DNA from: Antedon bifida
Lineage: Eukaryota > Echinodermata > Crinoidea > Comatulida > Antedonidae
Direction of reading: 5' to 3'
DNA length: 64,000 bases
Assembly (NCBI GenBank): GCA_963402885.1
Contig: OY727094.1
Location: 17,982,501-18,046,500 of the forward strand
The notes beneath the pieces are model-generated. The model worked only from the letters and a program-made list of their open reading frames with translations, did no database searches and was not told where the DNA came from. Made by a program: the position numbers and the translations under genes. Positions 13,154-63,826 of the stretch are shown here, piece after piece; position 1 is the stretch's first letter, and every line of letters begins with the position of its first letter.

Positions 13154-16150
13154 CTATAGTGAAGATTTAAAAGTTGCCAAAGACATATTATGGAGTTCTG
13201 ATTTTATGTTATTTGGTAGAGAATTCCATAATTTAGTTGATCTATAAACAAAAGTTCTTTTACCCTGAGAGTTATTCCATAACGGAATAGATAAATCATT
13301 ATTACTTTGGGAGCGAGTGCATTTATTATGGTTATCTACAGTAAATTGAAATAATATTGTTAAGTATCTTGGAGCTATTTCTTTTAAACATTTAAATAGC
13401 ATTATAAGAATATTTTCATTCCATTTTTCTGTAAGTCTACTCCATCCAAGAGTACTTAAGATATCATTAATAGGGGTATACATGTCTACTGATAACAATA
13501 TTCTACCTAATCTGTTGATTAAAACCTGAAGAGAATCTGAAAAACTTATATTACAATTGGACCAAACACAGCAACAATAATCAAATAATGGAATAATTAA
13601 AGCATTTGCTAACATTTTTAAAGTATACATAGGAAGATACATCTTAATACGACGAATCACACCGATACGTTTAGCTATTTTACAAGACATTTTGTCTATA
13701 TGTTCCTTCCAATTTAGTTGAGGATCAAAAATGACACCTAAATACTTAAAAGAATCAACTCTTTCAATAGTTTCGTTATTATGAAGTAAAGTTATATTCT
13801 TAAATGTTGCCGTTTTCTGATTTGTGCTGAAAACCATAAGCTTGGTCTTATTAAGATTTAGTGTGAGTTGATTATGGTCAAACCATTCTATAATTTTGTT
13901 TAGATTGATATTGAGTTGATTCTGAAGTATTAAAGGGTCAGATGAACTACATAAGAGTGTTGTATCATCTGCATACATCACACATTTACATGATAAAAAT
14001 TCAGGAAGTGAATTTACGTATAAAATAAATAGTAAAGGTCCCAGTATTGATCCTTGTGGGACACCAATATTAACATTCATGGTGTCAGATTTTGTTGAAT
14101 TTATACAAACAACTTGAGATCGTCCACTTAAATATGATTTAAACCAGTGAAGTGCAATATCATTTAAGCCATAATTCCTTAATTTGGTAAGTAATATTTC
14201 ATGGTTAACTGTATCAAATGCTTTCTTCAAGTCAAGAAATAAAGCAGCAGATGAAATACCTTTATCAAAGTTATCTAAAATATAATCAGTAACATCTAAA
14301 AGAGTAGTTTCTGTAGAGTGACCTTTTCTAAAGCCCGATTGGGAGGGATTTATAAGGTTGTTAGTTCTTAAATACAAGTATAATTGATCATGCACAGCAC
14401 GTTCTAAGAGTTTTGAAAGTATGGGTAAAACAGAAATTGGGCGGTAATTATAAGGGTCTGACATATCCCCATCTTTATATACAGGTGTTACCTTAGCTAG
14501 TTTCCATTCATCTGGAAATCTAGAACTGAACATAGAAAGATTACAAATATATGAGAGTGAGTCACAAATTATCGGACCAGCTAGTTTAAGAAGTTTGCAA
14601 TCAAAGTTATCAACACCCATAGCTTTATTAGTTGACAATTTACATAACTGGTTAAAAATGTAATCAGGGGTAAGAAGATCAAATTCAAATTTGTTACCCG
14701 CAAAACAATTTTCTGAAGTGTTACTAGTATAATTATTGGAGTTAGTATTATTGGAGTTAGTAAATTGATTTGCTAAAGAACTTCCAATTGAAGTAAAATG
14801 AGCATTGAAAACATTGGCTGTGTCCTTATCATTGGATGTATAGTTTTTATTATTATCTTTATATACATTATTTATACTGGGTTTAGTTTTAGGTATTAAT
14901 TTATTTATTGTATTCCATAATTTCTTAGGATTTTTAGCATTTTCGTTAATAGTATTTGTACAATATTTTCTTTTTAAATTCCTATTTAAATTATTAACTT
15001 GATTTCTCAGTTGTTTAGCTTTGTCCCAATCTTCAGGTTCATTAGTTTTGTGAGCTTTCTTATAATAGTAGTCTCTGTCTTTTGTTAATCTTATATAATC
15101 AGTGGTTATCCATTCAGGAAGTGATCCTTTCACTCTCTTTGTCTTTAAAGGGGCATGCCGATTACATAACTCACCAAATAAGTGTTTCCATAGCAACCAG
15201 ACAGTGTTAACATTAGAGTAAAGCTTGATTTGATCCCAGTCAATACATTTTAAATCTTCTATAAATTTGTTTTGGTCAAATTTTTTAAAAGAACGAGAGG
15301 TTATAAACTTTGGAGGAATATGTGTTTTTTTAGTTTTTCGAATTAGATATATTAAGGAGTGATCACTTATTCCATGGCTTGATACTCCTGCTGTTGAAAT
15401 ATTACAATTAGTGACAAAAATCAAATCTATAATTGTTTTACTAGTGTTAGTTATTCTTGTAAATTCATTAATTAGTTGGTTAAGATTACTATTTTTAGCT
15501 ATTTTATTAATTTTTCTTGCGTTAGTATTATTATTTATATCTAAGTTAAAGTCTCCCAAGATCACAACATCATTATATAATGATGTACTTTGTTGGAACA
15601 TGTTGTCAAGTTCATTTAAATATTCAACTTTAGCATTAGGTGGTCTATAAATATTACCTATAAGTAAAGGTTTAGAATATGGTAAATTTATTTCAATCCA
15701 AAGAGCTTCAACATTTTCAGATCTCAGCTCTTGGATTTCTTTAAAGGCAATACCACTTCTAATATAACATAGAACTCCACCGCCAGCTTGAGTATTTGGT
15801 CTATCAAGCCTACAAATCTTGTATCCGTCTACTAAAATCTCATTGTTATCAATATTGGTGCTTAGCCACGTTTCGGTTATACAAAATATATCATAGTTAT
15901 ATTCATGGAGAAGTGTTTTGACATTGTCTAATTTGTTTCTAAGTGATTGTATATTTAAGTGGGCAATTTTAAAGCCCTTTTTACTACTTATTTCATAATT
16001 AAAATTGTTAAAGTAATTACAAAAAGGTAGTTCCATTAAAGCGTTTTGTATAAAACAATTGTCGCACCACCAATTATTAAGTCTGATTGAAGGATTAGGA
16101 AAACAGGAAAAGTCATAAGATAATGAACAAATTTGGCAAGTAGTACACAT
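13154..16150 (-). CDS. LINE ORF2: endonuclease and reverse transcriptase
   Basis: This 998-residue open frame makes the enzyme that nicks target DNA and copies the element's RNA there. The N-terminus has a Cys-rich CTTCQICS ... WWCDNCF motif, possibly PHD-like (residues 2-33). An APE-type endonuclease follows, with HLNIQSLRNKLD (about 64), ITETWLS, GDFNLD (about 200) and SDHSL (about 268). The RT domain has YRPISVLPILSKLLER, SGFRKGHST, LFLDLKKAFDTVNH, GVPQGSILGPLLF and the catalytic MYADD. The C-terminus has FKYLGV and RSTKLWNSLPNNIK, as in CR1-group elements. All key motifs are intact with no stop. It starts just downstream of ORF1 and, lacking the element's 5' end, probably has no promoter of its own. 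Confidence 0.9.
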   Translation of the reverse strand: MCTTCQICSLSYDFSCFPNPSIRLNNWWCDNCFIQNALMELPFCNYFNNFNYEISSKKGFKIAHLNIQSLRNKLDNVKTLLHEYNYDIFCITETWLSTNIDNNEILVDGYKICRLDRPNTQAGGGVLCYIRSGIAFKEIQELRSENVEALWIEINLPYSKPLLIGNIYRPPNAKVEYLNELDNMFQQSTSLYNDVVILGDFNLDINNNTNARKINKIAKNSNLNQLINEFTRITNTSKTIIDLIFVTNCNISTAGVSSHGISDHSLIYLIRKTKKTHIPPKFITSRSFKKFDQNKFIEDLKCIDWDQIKLYSNVNTVWLLWKHLFGELCNRHAPLKTKRVKGSLPEWITTDYIRLTKDRDYYYKKAHKTNEPEDWDKAKQLRNQVNNLNRNLKRKYCTNTINENAKNPKKLWNTINKLIPKTKPSINNVYKDNNKNYTSNDKDTANVFNAHFTSIGSSLANQFTNSNNTNSNNYTSNTSENCFAGNKFEFDLLTPDYIFNQLCKLSTNKAMGVDNFDCKLLKLAGPIICDSLSYICNLSMFSSRFPDEWKLAKVTPVYKDGDMSDPYNYRPISVLPILSKLLERAVHDQLYLYLRTNNLINPSQSGFRKGHSTETTLLDVTDYILDNFDKGISSAALFLDLKKAFDTVNHEILLTKLRNYGLNDIALHWFKSYLSGRSQVVCINSTKSDTMNVNIGVPQGSILGPLLFILYVNSLPEFLSCKCVMYADDTTLLCSSSDPLILQNQLNINLNKIIEWFDHNQLTLNLNKTKLMVFSTNQKTATFKNITLLHNNETIERVDSFKYLGVIFDPQLNWKEHIDKMSCKIAKRIGVIRRIKMYLPMYTLKMLANALIIPLFDYCCCVWSNCNISFSDSLQVLINRLGRILLSVDMYTPINDILSTLGWSRLTEKWNENILIMLFKCLKEIAPRYLTILFQFTVDNHNKCTRSQSNNDLSIPLWNNSQGKRTFVYRSTKLWNSLPNNIKSELHNMSLATFKSSL

Positions 16151-16333
16151 TAAATTAAGAGTTTGCTTACATTTAGAAGAGCTATTGTTATAATTATATA
16201 TACTAGTAACAATATTTTTATCAGGTTTAACATTTGCATAATCCTTAGTTAATGGAACAGAAGTATTAAAATTGGTTATATTAGTATTTGCACTTTGTAC
16301 AGCTGTTCCGGCTTCAACTTCTTCGCCTACTTT

Positions 16334-16780
16334 TCATTGATCTTTGACATGTTTTGCTTTACAGTATTTCATTTTGTGTCCAAGTTGTTCACAGATATAA
16401 CAAAACACTGGTTGACCATGACGGCAATTACTGCTAATATGTCCGGTTTCGCTGCAAAAATGACATCTAGGGGATTTCATTCTTTGCTGTTTCTTGCTGT
16501 TCTTCTGAAGGATTTGGATACTGTTGTTTATACTCTTGATGAGAGTTGATGTGCCACGTTGGTTCAAGTGTAGGCCATGAGATGTGAAGTTAGACCTAGA
16601 ACTTTCTTTCAAACCAATGGTATATGAATGATCGATGAAGTATTTTCCGTACATTTGCTTTAATGAATCATTGAGCTTTTCCACTTGCATGTTGTAGTGG
16701 GCATTGTCAAAACGAGGGCATACTGCCGATACATACACATTTCCACCGGAAACTTTTGTCCACAACTCTGTTACAAGGTC
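16334..16780 (-). pseudogene. LINE ORF1, C-terminal half (esterase end and zinc knuckles)
   Basis: This is a 5'-truncated ORF1 ending in a stop at 16334. The visible part has SHGLHLNQRGTSTL, matching the last block (DGxHLN..G) of SGNH-type esterase domains in CR1/L2 ORF1. Two CX2CX4HX4C zinc knuckles follow, CHFCSETGHISSNC and CYICEQLGHKMKYC, which bind nucleic acid in such proteins. The frame runs back past the insertion point into host DNA to an ATG at 16810, so MLIAYTSII is flank-encoded and not part of the element. It cannot be a complete ORF1. Confidence 0.75.
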
Positions 16781-17415
16781 TTTGATGATTGAGGTGTATG
16801 CTATCAGCATTTTTTATTTTACAGTACAGTAGTTAAATTATAATAATCAATAGCAAAAATATTTAAAAACTGTGCTGTAAAATTCATTTCACACTTTATT
16901 TCTAAAAGCAGCATTCGGCAATGAATTATGGAAAATAAATGTGTATATTATTTAATACACATATTAATGTTATGGTATAACAGTGTGTAAACAAAGTATA
17001 CAAAAAATTTGATTGCAAATTTAAACAGAATAGTATGAGAATTTGTAAAAAAGAAGAAAAAAAGTTATTATGCTTGTGTTTATAACTTATTCATCATTTC
17101 TATATTGAACTATATATGCACACCAGTATTGTGTTATTCTATTCATTTTAAGAATGTACAAGATATATTTAAAATATGTTTGTTACGAGAATTGGTATTA
17201 TTATAATATAACTACAATAGTATAATAACATGGATACTACAGTAGTGTATTTTCAACTAAATTAATCTTTCCATAGAGATATTATATAATATCTATGATT
17301 TTCCTAAAGTCTTATAGTACTGGTAGTCGTCTAAATTCTAAAAACAATAGTTTCAATTTATTGATTGGTTTCACTGAAGGTTAAATTAATGTTATAAACT
17401 GTGTGTATGACTTAC

Positions 17416-56446: not shown

Positions 56447-58287
56447 ATTTATTCAGGTAAATAAAAAATATTACAAAAAGCAGAACAAGTCTAAAATTAT
56501 TGTTCATAATTATTTTTTATTATAAAAAGCTAAACATTACAGAAAAACAGATTCATGACGAAAAAAATACATAAAATAACAATATGCATAACAAATAAAT
56601 ATACTGCTTATTAATCATTAACATTTATCCAAAAAACCGTATTGCAATGTCATAAAAAATAGATAATTTCTTCATTCATTTTATCAGTACGAAGTATCAT
56701 TAATTAGGTTCACTAGTATTTTAAATATATTTATCAAAGTTTTAATTTATTTTTAGCATTATATACAGTAGTATTAATTAAAATGTATTTATTTATTTAC
56801 TTAGAAGAATCCTATATAGCATGCAGAATGTCCATCAAGAAAAAACACATAAAAGAGGTCGCTCCATTAAAAAGAAAATATTTATACTGTAAACATCAAA
56901 AAGTTATTTAAAACATAAAAAACAGTGCATCTTATTGAGAGTTAGGCAGCTCAACAATATAAGGTACAGCAGACCGTTTATATCTGTCGGCTAGAAAATA
57001 GTGTAAACACTAATCAAGTCCAGCCCCTTTTACATAAATTATACTTAACTAAATTTTACAACTATGGGCAATAATTTCTTTAACACAGGCCTAAAAATAA
57101 AAACTTAATAAGTTAAAACAATCCCATTTATATATTTTAAAATTTAAATATTACTACACTTTTTCATAAATAAGATATATAAAATAAATAATTATACAAC
57201 TAAAGTAAGAATTGCTTTAATTTCCGTTTAAATATAATTTTAGAGTCATGTTTAATATTTTCTGGTATCTCGTTCCATGAATTAGCACCAGAATATCGGA
57301 CAGAAAATTGACCAACATTACTTTTGTATTTTGGAATGGCAAGATTTCCCCTTGCTTGAAATCTCGTTGAGTGACGATGCTGGGCATGTGAAAAATATTC
57401 TGGAATTCCCACGGGAAACCTGCCATTAATACTGTCATGAACAAATAAAACTAACTGAAATGTATGTTGCTTATAAATATTTAGTATCCCCAGTTGTGTA
57501 AATAATGATGACGTATGTGCTAATCTATCAGAGTGTGTTATAGTGCGTACAATTCGTTTTTGGTTGAGGTGTATAGGTTTTAAGTTTGTTGTATATGTGT
57601 TCCCCCATGCCTCTAGAGCATATGATATATGGGGTAGGATAAAACAATTGTATAAGAGTAATAAAATTGACTGAGGTACAAAATTTCTCAGTTTATAGAG
57701 CACACCTGCCTTGGAACTAACAATTTTGTTGACCTTATTAATTTGATTTTTCCATGTGAGTTTATTGTCAAGTGTGACCCCCATATACACGGTTGATTCT
57801 ACTTCGTCAATTTCTGTTCCTTTAACATGTATTGCTCCGTTAGTTTTAATAACCGTGTGTTTACCACGGAAAATTATATACTCTGTCTTTTTTGTATTAA
57901 TGGTTAATTTATTTAAATCACACCAGTCCACAATATTTTTAAATTTGCTATCTATATACTGCATGTCAATATCATCGTGTGGATTAAAAGTATGGAACAA
58001 ACTGGTATCGTCTGCAAATAAACGAATATCAAAGTAGTCAGTCACATGTGCAATATCATTGACATATATAAGGAACAATGTAGGCCCCAATACTGACCCT
58101 TGGGGTACACCGCAACGTATGGAAAGTTCATTTGAATCAATACCATTTATACTCACATATTGTTTTCTGTTATATAGGTAATTTTTTAAAAAAGCCAATG
58201 GTAACCCCCGAATCCCGTATGAATATAATTTATTTATTAGAATGCTATGGTTCACCGTGTCGAAGGCTTTTTTCAGATCCAAGAATA
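56447..58287 (-). mobile_element. 5'-truncated CR1-like LINE
   Basis: The minus strand has the RT fragment (57200-58282), about 750 bp of 3' untranslated sequence and a TTACCTGAATAAATAAATA terminus at 56447-56465, a short repeated tail as in CR1/L2 elements. It begins abruptly at RT motif A, as usual for 5' truncation. Confidence 0.7.
57200..58282 (-). pseudogene. LINE reverse transcriptase, C-terminal two thirds
   Basis: About 360 residues are open from the truncation point to a stop at 57200. They begin at RT motif A (LDLKKAFDTVNHSIL), then GVPQGSVLGPTLFLIYVND, the catalytic LFADDTSLF, a YMGVTLDNKLTWKNQI thumb motif, ILPHISYALEAWGNTY, and a C-terminal SGANSWNEIPENIKH block typical of CR1-group proteins. 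Endonuclease and RT motifs 0-2 are missing, so it cannot act. The frame has no stops, so insertion is fairly recent. Its sequence differs clearly from the ORF2 at 13154-16150, so it is a different family. Confidence 0.8.
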
Positions 58288-58446
58288 GTCAGCACTTGAT
58301 TTCTAAATCAATTCTTTCCTGAAAAACACTCTGCTCTTGGCCATTTTTTACTTTTATTTCACCCTAAACAATTCATGTGCTTTTAGATCGAAGAGCAGAG
58401 AACAGCTAAATAGCTTGTTTTTATATCAGCAATAAAATTTACAGTA

Positions 58447-58548
58447 AACAAGGCCAACAGCCATAAGTCGCGTGCTAAAACGCATAGTGATACCGGACCG
58501 ACAGACCGACCGACATAGTGAACTATAGAGTCGCGTCCACGCGACTAA
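58447..58548. repeat. Interspersed repeat with GACAGACCGACCGACATAGTG core
   Basis: AACAAGGCCAACAGCCATAA, GTGATACCGGACCGACAGAC and CATAGTGAACTATAG recur at 60453-60540. This copy continues into AGTCGCGTCCACGCGACTAA, which can fold on itself (AGTCGCGT / ACGCGACT). A short dispersed element of unknown class. Confidence 0.7.
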
Positions 58549-58712: not shown

Positions 58713-60452
58713 CTTAGAATACCCCATACATAACTAATTTATAGGTCCATGCTTAAACACCCTGTTTTTTGTTTGCACTAGTCATTTCCTGTTATCTCCT
58801 TTAAAAGCATTTTTCTGAAAACACTGATTGTAACAACCTAAACTTTAGAGTGATATCTTTGGAAGTAAACTTGGTATCAAGATATATATTTCAGTATTTT
58901 AAATCTTGGATTAATATCTAGTTTCAGTATTTATGTCTGATTTCTATTGAGTGTGCTACAAATTACGCATTAATATATAGATAAAATAATATAAATCGCA
59001 TTTGGGCAGGAAAGGTCGGAGCACAGGGTTAGAGATACATAACGTGTTTTTAAATTAATAGTGTTTATTGTCGTTATTTGTGGATACTACAGTATGTTTT
59101 AATAATTGAGTCAACATTGTATTTGCCGTTATATGTCAGATACTAGTTGACGCAATTCAGGCACTACTGTATTTACGCATGGGAAATTCTCTGAGATCCA
59201 TTAAATTAGTTTAACAAACATAGTCATATGTCTCTCATGACATTAGTTTTAAACTAAACTAGGCCTATTAATATTTATATATTAGCAATACTAATTTTAC
59301 AGACCAGTTTGTGATTGGTGTGCCATTTACATTTCCTCTGAGAGTTGGATTGTAGGCAGAGTATTATCAAATCAAATTTTATTGCAACCAATAGGCCTAC
59401 ATTATACAAAATGGATAAAATACAAGAGAAAAAAGGTTTAAAATTAGAGGACATGAAAGTACAAAATAAAAACAAAAATTGATTGAAAATGATGTTTAGT
59501 TTATTTTTTGTTTTAAAAATGTATATCTTTTTCTTTTGTTTTCTTACTACTATCATTATTGTAGCTCTACTTTACTTTAAATACACTCATCCGTGCTTGT
59601 TTCATTTTTCTTTTAAAAGAAACAATTAAGCTGCGCCTGTTTTTTCTGCAAATTATTTATCAAAAAGATAAAAAATAAATCGGTAAATATGATTGAACTT
59701 TGGAACTTCCTTATGTAAAGCTATAAAACAAAATTCGTATTTGAAGGATGGATTTGTTAATTTTTTTGCTTGATTATTTTACCACACTTCCGCCTTCTTT
59801 GTACCAGATTTATTTATTTCTTATTGTACTTTTTAAAACTTTCAACCACCGCTATTTAAACTTATTTTAATTTTAATTTTAACCGGTGGCCATGACTTAA
59901 ACTTATATTGGCCTCCATCCACACACCACCTTATCCTAATTTTGTTATTTCAGTTATCGAATACTATATTATATTATCATGTGATTGTATTTATTTGTGT
60001 GTGGAAAATCAATAAAACAAACAAAAACAAAACGTGTTGTATAATTATTTGCAGGTGTATTGCAAGAATCAATTACAACCTAGTGTTAATATACAAGATG
60101 AACTTATTTAAAACAAACTCATTCGTGACACAATGAAATGTCTTGATTTTACGCGAAGAAATGTCTATTAGGGTCTGATAGGTTTTCTTGGAAATCATAA
60201 GAGAGTTAGATTTCCATTTTAATTTTTTATATTATATTATAGTACCCAAATATTTATATTGGATGATTCTTCTTTCAACATCAGTTTCCATAATCGTTAC
60301 ATTATGTTACAATATTACGGGAGTCTTATCGTCTCTTTTGTTTTGGTTATATTAAGAGAATGAAGTTCATGTCTTCACACCAAATAATAAATTGATGGAC
60401 ATGAAAGAACAAAAACAAAACTAACAATTTGGTTTTTATAACTTAAAGATAG
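58713..60452. other. Intergenic sequence, no gene seen
   Basis: A/T-rich with no recognised exon. The 3' untranslated region of the death-fold gene could extend into the right end of this stretch. Confidence 0.45.
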
Positions 60453-60540
60453 AACAAGGCCAACAGCCATAAGTCGCGTGAAAACGCATAGTGATACCGG
60501 ACCGACAGACAGACCGACCGACCGACATAGTGAACTATAG
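60453..60540. repeat. Second copy of the GACAGACCGACCGACATAGTG repeat
   Basis: Same sequence as 58447-58535 with one extra GACA/GACC unit and a small deletion. It lies about 90 bp downstream of the stop codon of the death-fold gene, so it may be in that gene's 3' untranslated region. Confidence 0.7.
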
Positions 60541-60629
60541 AAAACAATGACTATTTCATTTTAGTTGTAGCAGGGAGGAGAAATTTCACATCCCTGGTTG
60601 CAGTCATCATCCAAGCAACTGGATTTATC

Positions 60630-61144
60630 TTATGATGTTAGTACCCTATGCTCCGTGAGCATTTTCTCTTTTTTAAGTGTTGCAATCAATGATTGCAATT
60701 TACCCATTCTTTCAATTCTGAAGATCAAATCCCATTTATCTGCTGAGTCAACATTGTACCAGTCATCTATTTTTTCCATTGTTTCATCGCTTATTTCAAA
60801 CCCAAAGTTAATCAAATTTTGGCGATTCTTTGAGAATTTACAAACCACGAATTTCTCAAATCCTTCAAAAGATGGTACCCTGTCCTGGATCTGTGGTTCT
60901 AAACCCACTAAAGCACACAAATAGACAGCCTCAATTAGAACAGTCACATCTGATTTACTGAGAATTCCTGGCCCAACGAGTAGATTGAACAGATTACAGG
61001 CATCTTTTGCTCTCTGTATTTTAGCCAAAGGTATTCTGTTTTGAAACTCATATAGTAGTAATTTCAGTAGATTAATATTTCCATATGTGTCCCAGAATAA
61101 ATCAACATCAACAATTAGCTTTTCCAAATGTTCTGTTGAATGTT
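60630..61144 (-). CDS. Death-fold adaptor gene, last exon: DED-like domain and stop
   Basis: Acceptor TTTCTTAAAG|AACATTC, entered in phase 1, ending at TAA (60632-60630). About 170 residues. The first part (INLLKLLLYEFQNRIPL, then IQRAKDACNLFNLLVGPG, ILSKSDVTVLIEAV) follows the death effector domain plan: LK.LL....I....I...D...LF..L...G.LS..D...L.E. DEDs pair with other DEDs, for example FADD with caspase-8. The RxDL charge motif expected in helix 6 is not visible (ALVGLEPQI), so it is atypical. The C-terminal 85 residues (SDETMEKIDDWYNVDSADKW..., RIERMGKL) are unassigned; they may be part of a second death-like fold. Confidence is good for the exon, moderate for the DED call. Confidence 0.7.
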
Positions 61145-61195
61145 CTTTAAGAAAAAAGTAATTAAAATTAATAAAGATTTTGACAAAATCAGTTT

Positions 61196-61275
61196 TTAAT
61201 TAGTATGTAGATGTATAGTTAGGTTATATGCATGATTATGCGTATAACCTAATTATACATCTACATACTAATTAA
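61196..61275. repeat. 80-bp near-perfect hairpin in the intron
   Basis: TTAATTAGTATGTAGATGTA at the left is exactly inverted at the right end, with arms of about 33 bp and a short loop around GCATGATTATGC. It is a minimal MITE-like palindrome 51 bp upstream of the last exon. Confidence 0.8.
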
Positions 61276-61317
61276 CAACTATTACAATAATACAGTACGA
61301 TACCACACGACCACGAC

Positions 61318-61434
61318 AACAATAATATTAATAATATTAATAATAATATTAATATTAATAATAATATTAATAATATTAATAATATTAATAATATTAATAA
61401 TATTAATAATATTAATAATATTAATAATAATAAT
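61318..61434. repeat. (AATAATATT)n microsatellite
   Basis: Repeated AATAATATTAAT units over nearly 120 bp, within the intron. Confidence 0.9.
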
Positions 61435-61886
61435 GTACAGTATATAAGATGAGGTAGGCCTATGTAGGTTACTCTACTCTACTTTATTTAACAAAATATT
61501 ATTGGTGTATAGAAGCGGTACTTTTTCATTTAATCAATAATAGTTATTACTTAAAGGATGTACTTAAGGAGACACTTTTCGCGAAAACACATGAGGGGCA
61601 ATATATATATTTTAAAACTACAGCCAACATCTATTCAGGAAACACCCATATTATTATAGAAAACTTTGTGGGGTCCCGAAAGCGTTCTAGTAATAGCTCT
61701 TTACTATGTAGAAGTCGTCGGTAGTTTATTTGACTGACGTCCCAAGTTTTAAATAATTTTAAATTAAAAATAAAACAGATACTGTAACAATTATTATGGT
61801 TGTATCTTCATAGTATTGACGAGATCAGAAATAACTGGTTTAATTTAAATTATATTTAATATAATAGTAGAGCTCAGTAAACTTAC
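61435..61886. other. Intron of the death-fold gene
   Basis: No other feature recognised. Confidence 0.6.
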
Positions 61887-61931
61887 CTGTTGGTAGTGTT
61901 GCGGTTGATGTTATTGGCGTTAAAAGTTCCT
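61887..61931 (-). CDS. Death-fold adaptor gene, 45-bp linker exon
   Basis: A micro-exon with acceptor CTTTTACAG|AGG and donor ACAG|GTAAGT, phase 1 at both ends. It adds the Thr/Pro-rich linker EELLTPITSTATLPT (the first residue is shared with the preceding exon) between the TRADD-N-like and DED-like domains. Its support is the two good splice sites and the fact that it keeps frame with the exons on either side. Confidence 0.65.
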
Positions 61932-62293
61932 CTGTAAAAGTAAAGAAGCGTACGTTAGTTTGTTTGAAGTTTTATCCATAGTATATATTATATTTAAGGA
62001 ATTTTCTGTTAATACTTTTGCATTTTTACTTGATTTACATTAAGCTTGTCTATATATTACGCGTGTACACGAATCTGTTGCATTTTGACATGGAAATACA
62101 AAAAGTAGGAAAATATACACACCTATGAATATTTCTAACTTTATTACTACCTGTCTGTGGGTAATTTTCTAAAAGTATTTAAACATATTTTATTAATTTA
62201 TAAAAACCTCCCGAAAGAGAAGCAGTATGGCTACATACTACATCAACATCGTTACAAAATTAGCTAGCATTAAAAAGAAAGTATTATTATCAC

Positions 62294-62680
62294 CTTCTAG
62301 TTTCATACAAACAAGTTTGTATTGGTTTCGATCAACCCGTACATTCCATTCAACAATACATTCAGACCAATGTTCTTTAGGAAATAACACTTTAACCAAA
62401 CATTTCAGAAGCCTTCCACTCTTATACAAGCTCCATATGAGGAATAGAGCCCTCAAATGTAATGTAGACAGATGTAATGTTAAAGACGTCTGTTCGAGTG
62501 CTTTAATTGTAAAACCAATTTCCCTGATTAATTCTACTAGTTCTTTAAATGTATCATTTTGTTGTGGCAGATTATTTGCATGCACGACATCTTTTCCACA
62601 AAAAATGTTTTGAAAGATATTTGCAACATACTGTGGATATGGTGGACCTTTAATGCTCTCAAGATACACTGTCAACAAAT
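62294..62680 (-). CDS. Death-fold adaptor gene, TRADD-N-like domain exon
   Basis: Acceptor TTCATTTAG|ATT; 387 bp (129 codons), phase 1-1 if it ends at GAAG|GTGATA, a weak donor. If that donor is not used, the frame reads on only 18 more codons to a stop at 62238. It begins DLLTVYLESIKGPPYP. The core, LTLHLSTLHLRALFLIW, then SLYKSGRLLKCLVKVLF, then VEWNVRVDRNQYKLVC, resembles the TRADD-like N-terminal domain of invertebrate adaptors and NLRs: a strand, an L..LW..Y.SG.L helix pair, and a final strand with a hydrophobic-x-Y pattern. In vertebrate TRADD this domain binds TRAF2. This is recognition by pattern, so the domain name is tentative. Confidence 0.6.
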
Positions 62681-62839
62681 CTAAATGAATAAGATATAAT
62701 AAAATATTATTAACCGATTATGGTGTTATTTCACTAGAAAAGAAACGCTATTTTTTTATAATTATGTTATTTATAGGAATAGATAACTCACTGGTGTCTA
62801 AGAAGAATTGTTGTTATGGTTTATTGGATTATAACTAAC

Positions 62840-63013
62840 CTATACTACCTTGTATTGTTACATTATTTAAAGAATATTTACTTGTAGCACATAGTGATTC
62901 CGACAATGTTTTTCCAGGCACTGAAGTGGCAGATATTGGTTGTGTCCATGTCGCTTCTGTAGTACATTCTCTTGTAGGCCTACGTGTAGGCCAATCACTA
63001 TTTGCCTTATTTA
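62840..63013 (-). CDS. Death-fold adaptor gene, Ser/Thr-rich linker exon
   Basis: 174 bp (58 codons), acceptor TTATTCTGTAG|TAAAT, donor ATAG|GTTAGT, phase 1-1. It encodes a low-complexity Ser/Thr/Pro-rich linker (for example TRRPTRECTTEATWTQPISA) with no predicted fold. It joins the Death domain to the TRADD-N-like domain in frame. Confidence 0.65.
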
Positions 63014-63565
63014 CTACAGAATAAATTAAGTTTTGTAAAACCAACATTGTAGTTTAAATCCAATTAAAAAAATGATCCCACAAAGAAAAAAATAAAATGA
63101 ATTTTGAATGAGATTCCTACGTTGTTACGAGAATTTAATAAGCGAATATGTGAATACGACCATCGCACGCCAAAAAATGTAAAGACAGAAAGTACCTCTT
63201 CGCCCACAAAAGGAAATTAAACTTTGCAGTTTGTAATATATTTTAAACATCCGTGTTTAGGCAGGTATATTTTGGGTTGAATCAGTGTCGTTATTTCACG
63301 AATTACGTATGCACGATATAATGTTTATGGTTGTTATGGCATTGGCTTAATATTATTGTACTGTTTTCTGCGCTCATTCACGGTTATTACAAACCATATA
63401 CTGTATCAGTACTACTTTTATTAAAGTGTATGGTCATTACAAACCTACAGTATTTCTTATTTATGTATACAAATTTTTGTACAATTTTTCTAAAGACAAA
63501 ATTGGGTATCCTGCAGAAATAAGGATAATCAATTTAAAAATGGAGCTTATAATGATGTAGCTTAC
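63014..63565. other. Intron of the death-fold gene
   Basis: No exon or element recognised. Confidence 0.6.
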
Positions 63566-63826
63566 TTTCTATTTTGTCAGCTAAGTCGTTTCTCTTGACT
63601 TTTCTTAGAGCTTCAGTAAGTTGTACATTCCAGGACTTCCCCGCACATGATATTTTCTTGCGCCAAGTGTCCAACATACTGAACATTGCTCCTTGTATGT
63701 TATCACGATTGTCATGTTTAAAACGATAAAGATTTTCACTTGTAAAGCCAAGATATACTGCGAGGGTTTCCCACTCATAGCCAATGTGTTGCACTAGATC
63801 CATCATTAATTCATAAGTTATGGTGT
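63566..63826 (-). CDS. Death-fold adaptor gene, Death domain exon (gene continues beyond the window)
   Basis: 261 bp (87 codons), phase 1-1, acceptor TTTTCTTAG|ACACC and donor GAAA|GTAAGC. A complete Death domain fills the exon. The residues MMDLVQHIGYEWETLAVYLGF carry the usual IG.(D/E)W..LA..LG helix 1-2 motif, MLDTWRKK is the helix 4 W motif, and LTEALRKVKRNDLADKIE closes helices 5-6 (L..AL....R.DLA..IE). Death domains bind other Death domains in receptor and adaptor complexes at the membrane or in the cytosol. The exon begins with a splice acceptor, so upstream exons, including the start codon, lie right of the window. It is the first of five visible exons (459 residues in all). Confidence 0.85.

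Follow-up and report, generated by a model that had tools for sequence, protein, structure and literature searches.

Which protein do five minus-strand exons with death-signalling domains encode in the crinoid Antedon bifida? The exons lie in a 64,000-nucleotide stretch of contig OY727094.1 (assembly GCA_963402885.1), here called the window (C7:17982501-18046500). The genome searched comprises 315.6 Mb in 27 contigs (C1-C27), and L-numbers denote the genomic loci compared. Its COX1, on contig C27, fits genetic code table 9, with AAA for Asn and ATA for Ile at positions where animal COX1 has these residues; this agrees with an echinoderm, and flatworms use the code too. A preliminary description of the window had proposed a small adaptor joining a Death domain, a TRADD-N-like domain and a death effector domain (DED), which would do in one chain the work of TRADD and FADD. 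The evidence assembled below favors a different reading, to which a probability of roughly 0.6 is assigned: the exons encode a signalling tail at the C-terminus of a large Roco GTPase, in the order Roc-COR, Death, Ser/Thr linker, DEDD2-type TRADD-N, short linker and tandem DED.

The exon chain and its Death domain

All five exons are present on the minus strand. Every intron is bounded by GT and AG and lies in phase 1, and joining the exons yields a frame of 445 residues and a terminal stop with no internal stop. The earlier observation that five exons join in one frame is thus confirmed in genomic sequence. E1 (63566..63826) opens at a TTAG acceptor and ends in a phase-1 GTAAGC donor. Its Pfam Death match (1.4e-12; 48 bits against a cut-off of 22.6) makes a solid case for the Death domain already recognized there. 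E2 (62882..63013), a Ser/Thr/Pro-rich linker about 550 bases from E1, is open and in phase 1 at both ends; it occurs only once in the genome and is the least certain of the five exons. E3 (62294..62680) encodes the putative TRADD-N-type domain. E4 (61887..61931) is a short linker similar to an exon (EELL...SPAT) found between E3 and E5 in L010 and L011. E5 (60630..61144) encodes the predicted tandem DED and the stop.

All boundaries are in phase 1, and the four versions tried with an exon skipped stay open too, so that an open frame proves little about this particular chain. Both C7:7.16 Mb copies (L010, L011) keep the splice sites of E3 and E4 in place, the E3 donor is conserved in the eight C9 copies compared, and the E5 acceptor (AAG) is at the identical place in all seven copies compared. 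The ratio of nonsynonymous to synonymous substitution rates (dN/dS) is 0.37-0.49 for the window E1 against four paralogs, 0.43-0.61 for E3 against six and 0.30-0.46 for E5 against five; E1, E3 and E5 therefore look constrained as protein.

At least 150 Death exons are present in the genome. Among 28 related to E1 that were scanned, 16 carry GTAAG where the window has GTAAGC, in two (L054, L055) a shorter match ends with GTAAGC, five have another GT and five have none; L048 has no donor GT at the E1 donor place. The window donor is of a type that most related Death exons retain, a count that speaks slightly for a single gene.

Roco exons upstream and a Roco paralog

Minus-strand frames in the 10 kb past the window end include a P-loop exon (GQEGVGKT; Roc match only 0.054) and two neighboring exons that jointly carry COR-A (7e-7 and 2.3e-3, each fragment under the curated cut-off). 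A genome-wide COR-A search gives 3.8e-4 at the same place. Judged by these matches, a COR domain follows a putative Roc, the arrangement by which a Roco GTPase is recognized. Since E1 starts at an acceptor and COR and P-loop exons lie upstream, the protein is larger than first described. E1 is not the first exon; it is read here as internal to a Roco gene that probably extends past the window edge, where the window exons would be spliced to the Roc-COR exons. The exon order first proposed, from Death through linker, TRADD-N-like domain and second linker to DED and stop, stands; its upstream start and its single DED do not.

A paralogous Roco locus at C7:15.04 Mb encodes, on one strand, Death, Roc, COR, three further Death exons and a tandem DED. 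Its first Death exon scores 3.9e-14 and is followed by a P-loop exon, Roc (0.0069) and COR-A (1.3e-3, 1.7e-4); the 3' part holds Death exons at 4.3e-9, 1.1e-9 and 1.9e-9 and then the tandem-DED exon (DED 6.2e-3). Death exons running into a tandem DED at this Roco locus support one gene in the window. Among the 150 E5-like places scored genome-wide, 36 were used in a neighbor comparison alongside 21 of 150 Death places; this E5/Death tally was made by hand and is a lower bound. A Death exon lies within 6 kb upstream of five of the 36, the window included. In the other four, one of which is the C7:15.04 Mb paralog, Death exons lie within 1.5 kb upstream. Together, the paralog, neighbor and donor counts indicate that Death followed by further exons, in some genes by a tandem DED, is a recurrent layout; the window gene conforms to it, with the addition of an interposed TRADD-N exon. 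The constituent exons are numerous, with at least 122 COR-A exons at E 0.001 or better and at least 148 DED matches at E 0.01 or better. In two regions, C7:11.3-18.05 Mb and C10:11.2-16.2 Mb, Roco-type COR exons form large arrays together with Death and tandem-DED-like exons, most of them on one strand.

The last exon: a predicted tandem DED

E5 had been called a single DED; the family assignment holds and the count does not. The best model of E5 (mean predicted local distance difference test score, pLDDT, 92) folds as two DEDs packed in one chain, of the caspase-8/FLIP kind: DED1 (60879..61142), with model helices up to residue 88, and DED2 (60633..60854), with model helices 105-169, which the preliminary description had overlooked. 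In a Foldseek search of the PDB, all 50 best of 114 matches are tandem DED structures of caspase-8, cFLIP or vFLIP, with probability 0.99-1.00, query TM 0.51-0.72 and a best E of 1.0e-3 among the matches listed. Pfam DED matches the window E5 at 1.1e-3, under its cut-off, and matches 12 of 17 E5 relatives at E up to 1, the best at 1.8e-12. A profile of the 17-member E5 family matches caspase-8 across both DEDs (1.1e-6 for 5h31).

The middle exon: a probable TRADD-N-type domain

The AlphaFold2 model of E3 (mean pLDDT 89.5) is beta-alpha-beta-beta-alpha-beta, an RRM-like order of elements. The TRADD-N fold is an RRM-like two-layer alpha/beta sandwich with four strands; the E3 model follows that order but has no significant PDB match. 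In the beta2-beta3 turn of TRADD-N, a small residue followed by Ser (or Cys) is described as a conserved contact (PMC8195603). Across the 22-member E3 family, Ser or Cys occupies this turn in every member (12 Ser, 10 Cys), and a small residue precedes it in nine (six G, three S); the window copy has Thr-Ser. TRADD-like_N is the Pfam family matched by the most E3 members, six of 22, all under the cut-off and the best at 0.0012.

A profile alignment (hhalign) of the E3 family with L076 (C13:11.629 Mb), a DEDD-like TRADD-N locus with a TRADD-like_N match of 3.6e-9 and a DED exon upstream, is in register over 52 columns at E 2.4e-4, and none of 60 shuffles is as good. The names DEDD-like (L076) and NCOA6-like (L077) are labels coined in the present analysis. 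On the predicted fold, the turn residue, the weak Pfam matches and the match to L076, E3 is probably a TRADD-N domain at the superfamily level, most likely nearer DEDD2 than TRADD. The TRADD-N proposal therefore survives in altered form, and the call is weaker than that for Death or DED.

A tail found behind three kinds of upstream exons

E3 has 49 genomic matches at E 0.01 or better, 12 full-length and 37 further. In all 12 full-length copies an E5 copy follows on the same strand, always in that order; 11 pairs lie within 3 kb and the pair at C9:28.547 Mb is 9.4 kb apart. The E5 copy at C7:7.185 Mb has an inner stop. Eleven of the weaker loci were inspected, and ten have the reversed order, tandem DED and then TRADD-N, within the locus sequence; the eleventh, L028, is reversed too, judged from the position of its E5 match.

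The E3-E5 pair is seen behind three kinds of upstream exons: Roco-Death in the window, TRIM at C7:7.157 Mb and ankyrin at two C9 copies. The C7:7.157 Mb pair, whose E3 and E5 are each the nearest to those of the window, is preceded by a RING/B-box TRIM frame (RING 8e-10). The frame after the RING/B-box looks by eye like the end of a TRIM coil and carries, 0.2 kb ahead of E3, a phase-1 GTAAGC donor; an adjoining TRIM has, in that position, a filamin repeat and, judged by eye, NHL repeats. At the two C9 copies, ankyrin exons stand some 4-7 kb upstream of E3; five of six frames tried match Ank, three over the cut-off. The ankyrin-E3 joins are tentative because of this gap and because, in one copy, a reverse transcriptase frame is interposed.

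It is a tentative proposal, somewhat short of even odds, that the TRADD-N and tandem-DED tail is a plug-in output module on phase-1 exons that has been transferred among Roco-Death GTPases, TRIM-type ubiquitin ligases and ankyrin proteins; different sensors could thereby feed one shared caspase/TRAF output, each within a single chain. In that case the window gene would be a death hub gated by its GTPase and equipped with adaptor domains of three kinds. If the joins hold, one two-domain tail behind three sensor types in one genome is a natural test of modular signalling, since output could be compared with the sensor varied and the tail constant.

Two further observations concern these copies. 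L014, L016 and L017 (C9:28.50-28.83 Mb) have a PGPISPAT-type repeat of variable copy number in an open frame between E3 and E5. On C14 (12863954-12874254, minus strand), a weak E3-like match at 12.864 Mb lies 9.8 kb from a same-strand Death place, a possible second Death/TRADD-N neighbor pair.

Alternative readings

Several observations weigh against the Roco reading, and one group bears on whether the window holds one gene or two. The chain is read from genomic DNA alone, in which the Death-to-TRADD-N splice from E1 to E3 is a proposed join, and a genome-wide search for E2 relatives found none. An AATAAA stands at 63422, between E1 and E3 (a signal frequent throughout this AT-rich stretch, in introns as elsewhere), and an ATG lies just 5' of E2 within its open frame, so one gene could stop at E1 and the next begin with E2. 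A Roco-Death gene ending after E1 would then adjoin a small TRADD-N and tandem-DED gene (E2-E5) with no Death domain. Seven C10 Death exons (L040-L042, L045-L047, L050) fit this division: they lack GTAAG (five have another GT, two none) and reach an in-frame stop within five codons, so some Roco-Death genes may end there. No second locus combining a full-length E3 with an E1-like Death exon appeared among the genome matches. The window E1, by contrast, has its GTAAGC donor, of the kind present in 16 of the 28 related exons, and only some 550 bases separate it from E2. The Roco paralog places a tandem DED after Death at its end, the other E5-like places with Death exons close upstream repeat that neighborhood, and the exon preceding E3 in the TRIM-associated copies also ends in a phase-1 GTAAGC donor. 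Two adjacent genes are accordingly judged unlikely, at about one chance in four.

The domain calls meet their own counter-evidence. E3 might be another RRM-like or ferredoxin-like alpha/beta domain. The window copy has no Pfam TRADD match and none of the 22 members reaches the curated cut-off; Foldseek of the E3 model against the PDB gives no match at E 0.001 or better, TRADD is absent from the 50 best of 117 matches, and a PDB sequence search with the E3 profile gives no relevant match. The hhalign probability for L076 is only 44%. With the ten close E3 copies alone it falls to 4% (E 0.011), still with none of 60 shuffles as good, and NCOA6-like L077 (TRADD-like_N 6.0e-6) fails to match E3, 17 of 60 shuffles being as good; these added figures weigh slightly against TRADD-N. 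Set against this are the prominence of TRADD-like_N among the Pfam matches, the in-register alignment to L076 and the invariant Ser/Cys of the turn, albeit with a small residue before it in a minority of members, and a different fold family for E3 is regarded as improbable. For E5, only one of five models is confident (the other four have pLDDT 56-60). The caspase-8 profile match is not counted as independent proof because it is lost in a 13-member control profile made without the divergent L049, L026, L030 and L037. Over seven pairs, the distances among E3 copies do not mirror those among E5 copies (Mantel r 0.36; 612 of 5040 permutations as good), a mismatch suggestive of exchange between copies.

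The free-standing adaptor first proposed, fusing the jobs of TRADD and FADD, had the kinds of domain largely right. It is nonetheless very improbable: E1 opens at an acceptor with Roco exons directly upstream, neither TRADD nor FADD has this domain order or a tandem DED, and the genome has separate FADD-like (DED-DED-Death), caspase-8-like and DEDD-like loci.

Proposed function and possible partners

As the tail of a Roco GTPase, the window exons suggest a mechanism. The GTPase part would sense a signal and oligomerize, and Roco oligomerization would cluster many tandem DEDs. Clustered tandem DEDs could nucleate filaments with a DED-bearing initiator caspase, or else act as competitors of that caspase in the manner of FLIP. 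The Death domain may dock other Death proteins, and TRADD-N may bind a further partner, perhaps of the TRAF-MATH type. Lacking a caspase domain after DED2, the tail might either initiate caspase filaments or block them, and the sequence does not decide between these.

Possible partners for each tail domain are encoded in the genome, given its caspase, DED-DED-Death and MATH loci. Two DEDs and a caspase occur at C1:8.496-8.501 Mb and again at C1:8.3207-8.3225 Mb; by eye, the 2 kb upstream of a caspase hold no DED exons, and the DEDs sit further out. A DED-DED-Death locus at C11:9354577-9355874 (minus strand) is perhaps a FADD-like gene with two DEDs, DED and TRADD-like_N adjoin at C13:11.629-11.6305 Mb, and TRAF-type MATH domains are also encoded. 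Position suggests that each partner locus is one gene.

Repeats and retroelements in the window

A minus-strand reverse transcriptase frame (57200-58288; RVT_1 2.3e-19), by eye like a long interspersed nuclear element (LINE), lies about 2.3 kb downstream of E5. A second element, also LINE-like by eye, is a long minus-strand frame with endonuclease-like and reverse transcriptase motifs and a zinc-knuckle frame beside it (13154-16333 and 16334-16813). A repeat some 90-105 bases long, containing a GGTC/TCGG core, stands just past the E5 stop (60441-60545) and near the first reverse transcriptase (58447-58529); it recurs in L071 and, shorter, in L037. The intron before E5 has an inverted repeat (61191-61280) with 43-base arms, 93% complementary and separated by four bases, next to an AT-rich tandem repeat (61306-61446).

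Comparison with known systems

The window gene shares with caspase-8, cFLIP and vFLIP the predicted fold and two-DED layout; unlike caspase-8, it has no caspase domain, and the stop comes directly after DED2. With human TRADD and FADD it shares kinds of domain (TRADD-N and Death; DED and Death), but it differs in domain order, GTPase part and tandem DED, and its E3 matched a DEDD-like TRADD-N. Vertebrate TRADD has PF09034 and then a C-terminal Death domain; here Death comes first, and the classic TRADD_N family (PF09034) was found nowhere in the genome, in a search where controls were silent too. FADD is a single DED followed by Death and nothing else, an arrangement that the window gene does not have. 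DAPK1 has Roc-COR followed by Death. The window gene as proposed would share this order with DAPK1 and other Roco proteins; unlike DAPK1, the window gene shows no kinase in the upstream frames read and adds TRADD-N and a tandem DED C-terminally.

Roc-COR joined to immune adaptor domains is also known from Aplysia, which has Roco-bearing TLR and MyD88-like proteins (PMC9334734). The Aplysia proteins are TIR-based, and the available passages of that paper mention neither TRADD-N nor a tandem DED.

The closest relatives are the DEDD2-clade TRADD-N proteins, whose expansions in marine invertebrates reach 18-23 copies in echinoderms (Kaur et al. 2021; PMC8195603). As described in the parts of that paper available, their constant part is TRADD-N with a Death-like domain, usually DED, accompanied by variable flanks, TRIM fusions and nearby retrotransposons. 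The Antedon copies resemble them in the pairing of TRADD-N with a Death-like domain, the lineage-specific expansion, the variable flanks, the putative TRIM fusions and the retrotransposons nearby. DED precedes TRADD-N in DEDD2 and in several expansions (PMC8195603), an order also present in this genome at the weaker E3 loci; in the proposed window gene, TRADD-N precedes the tandem DED and follows Roc-COR-Death. In the article text of PMC8195603, Roco appears only within a reference title. The literature searched, with supplements and most subscription journals outside its scope, yielded no paper on TRADD together with crinoids or on tandem DED together with TRADD-N, and among the papers listed none on the Roco-Death-TRADD-N-tandem-DED layout was noticed. 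TRADD-N/DED proteins of marine invertebrates, TRIM-linked ones included, are thus already known as far as the available text goes (PMC8195603); the Roco-Death-TRADD-N-tandem-DED layout and the reuse of its tail appear new, and would extend the invertebrate TRADD-N/DED repertoire, so far little studied, by a member switched through a GTPase.

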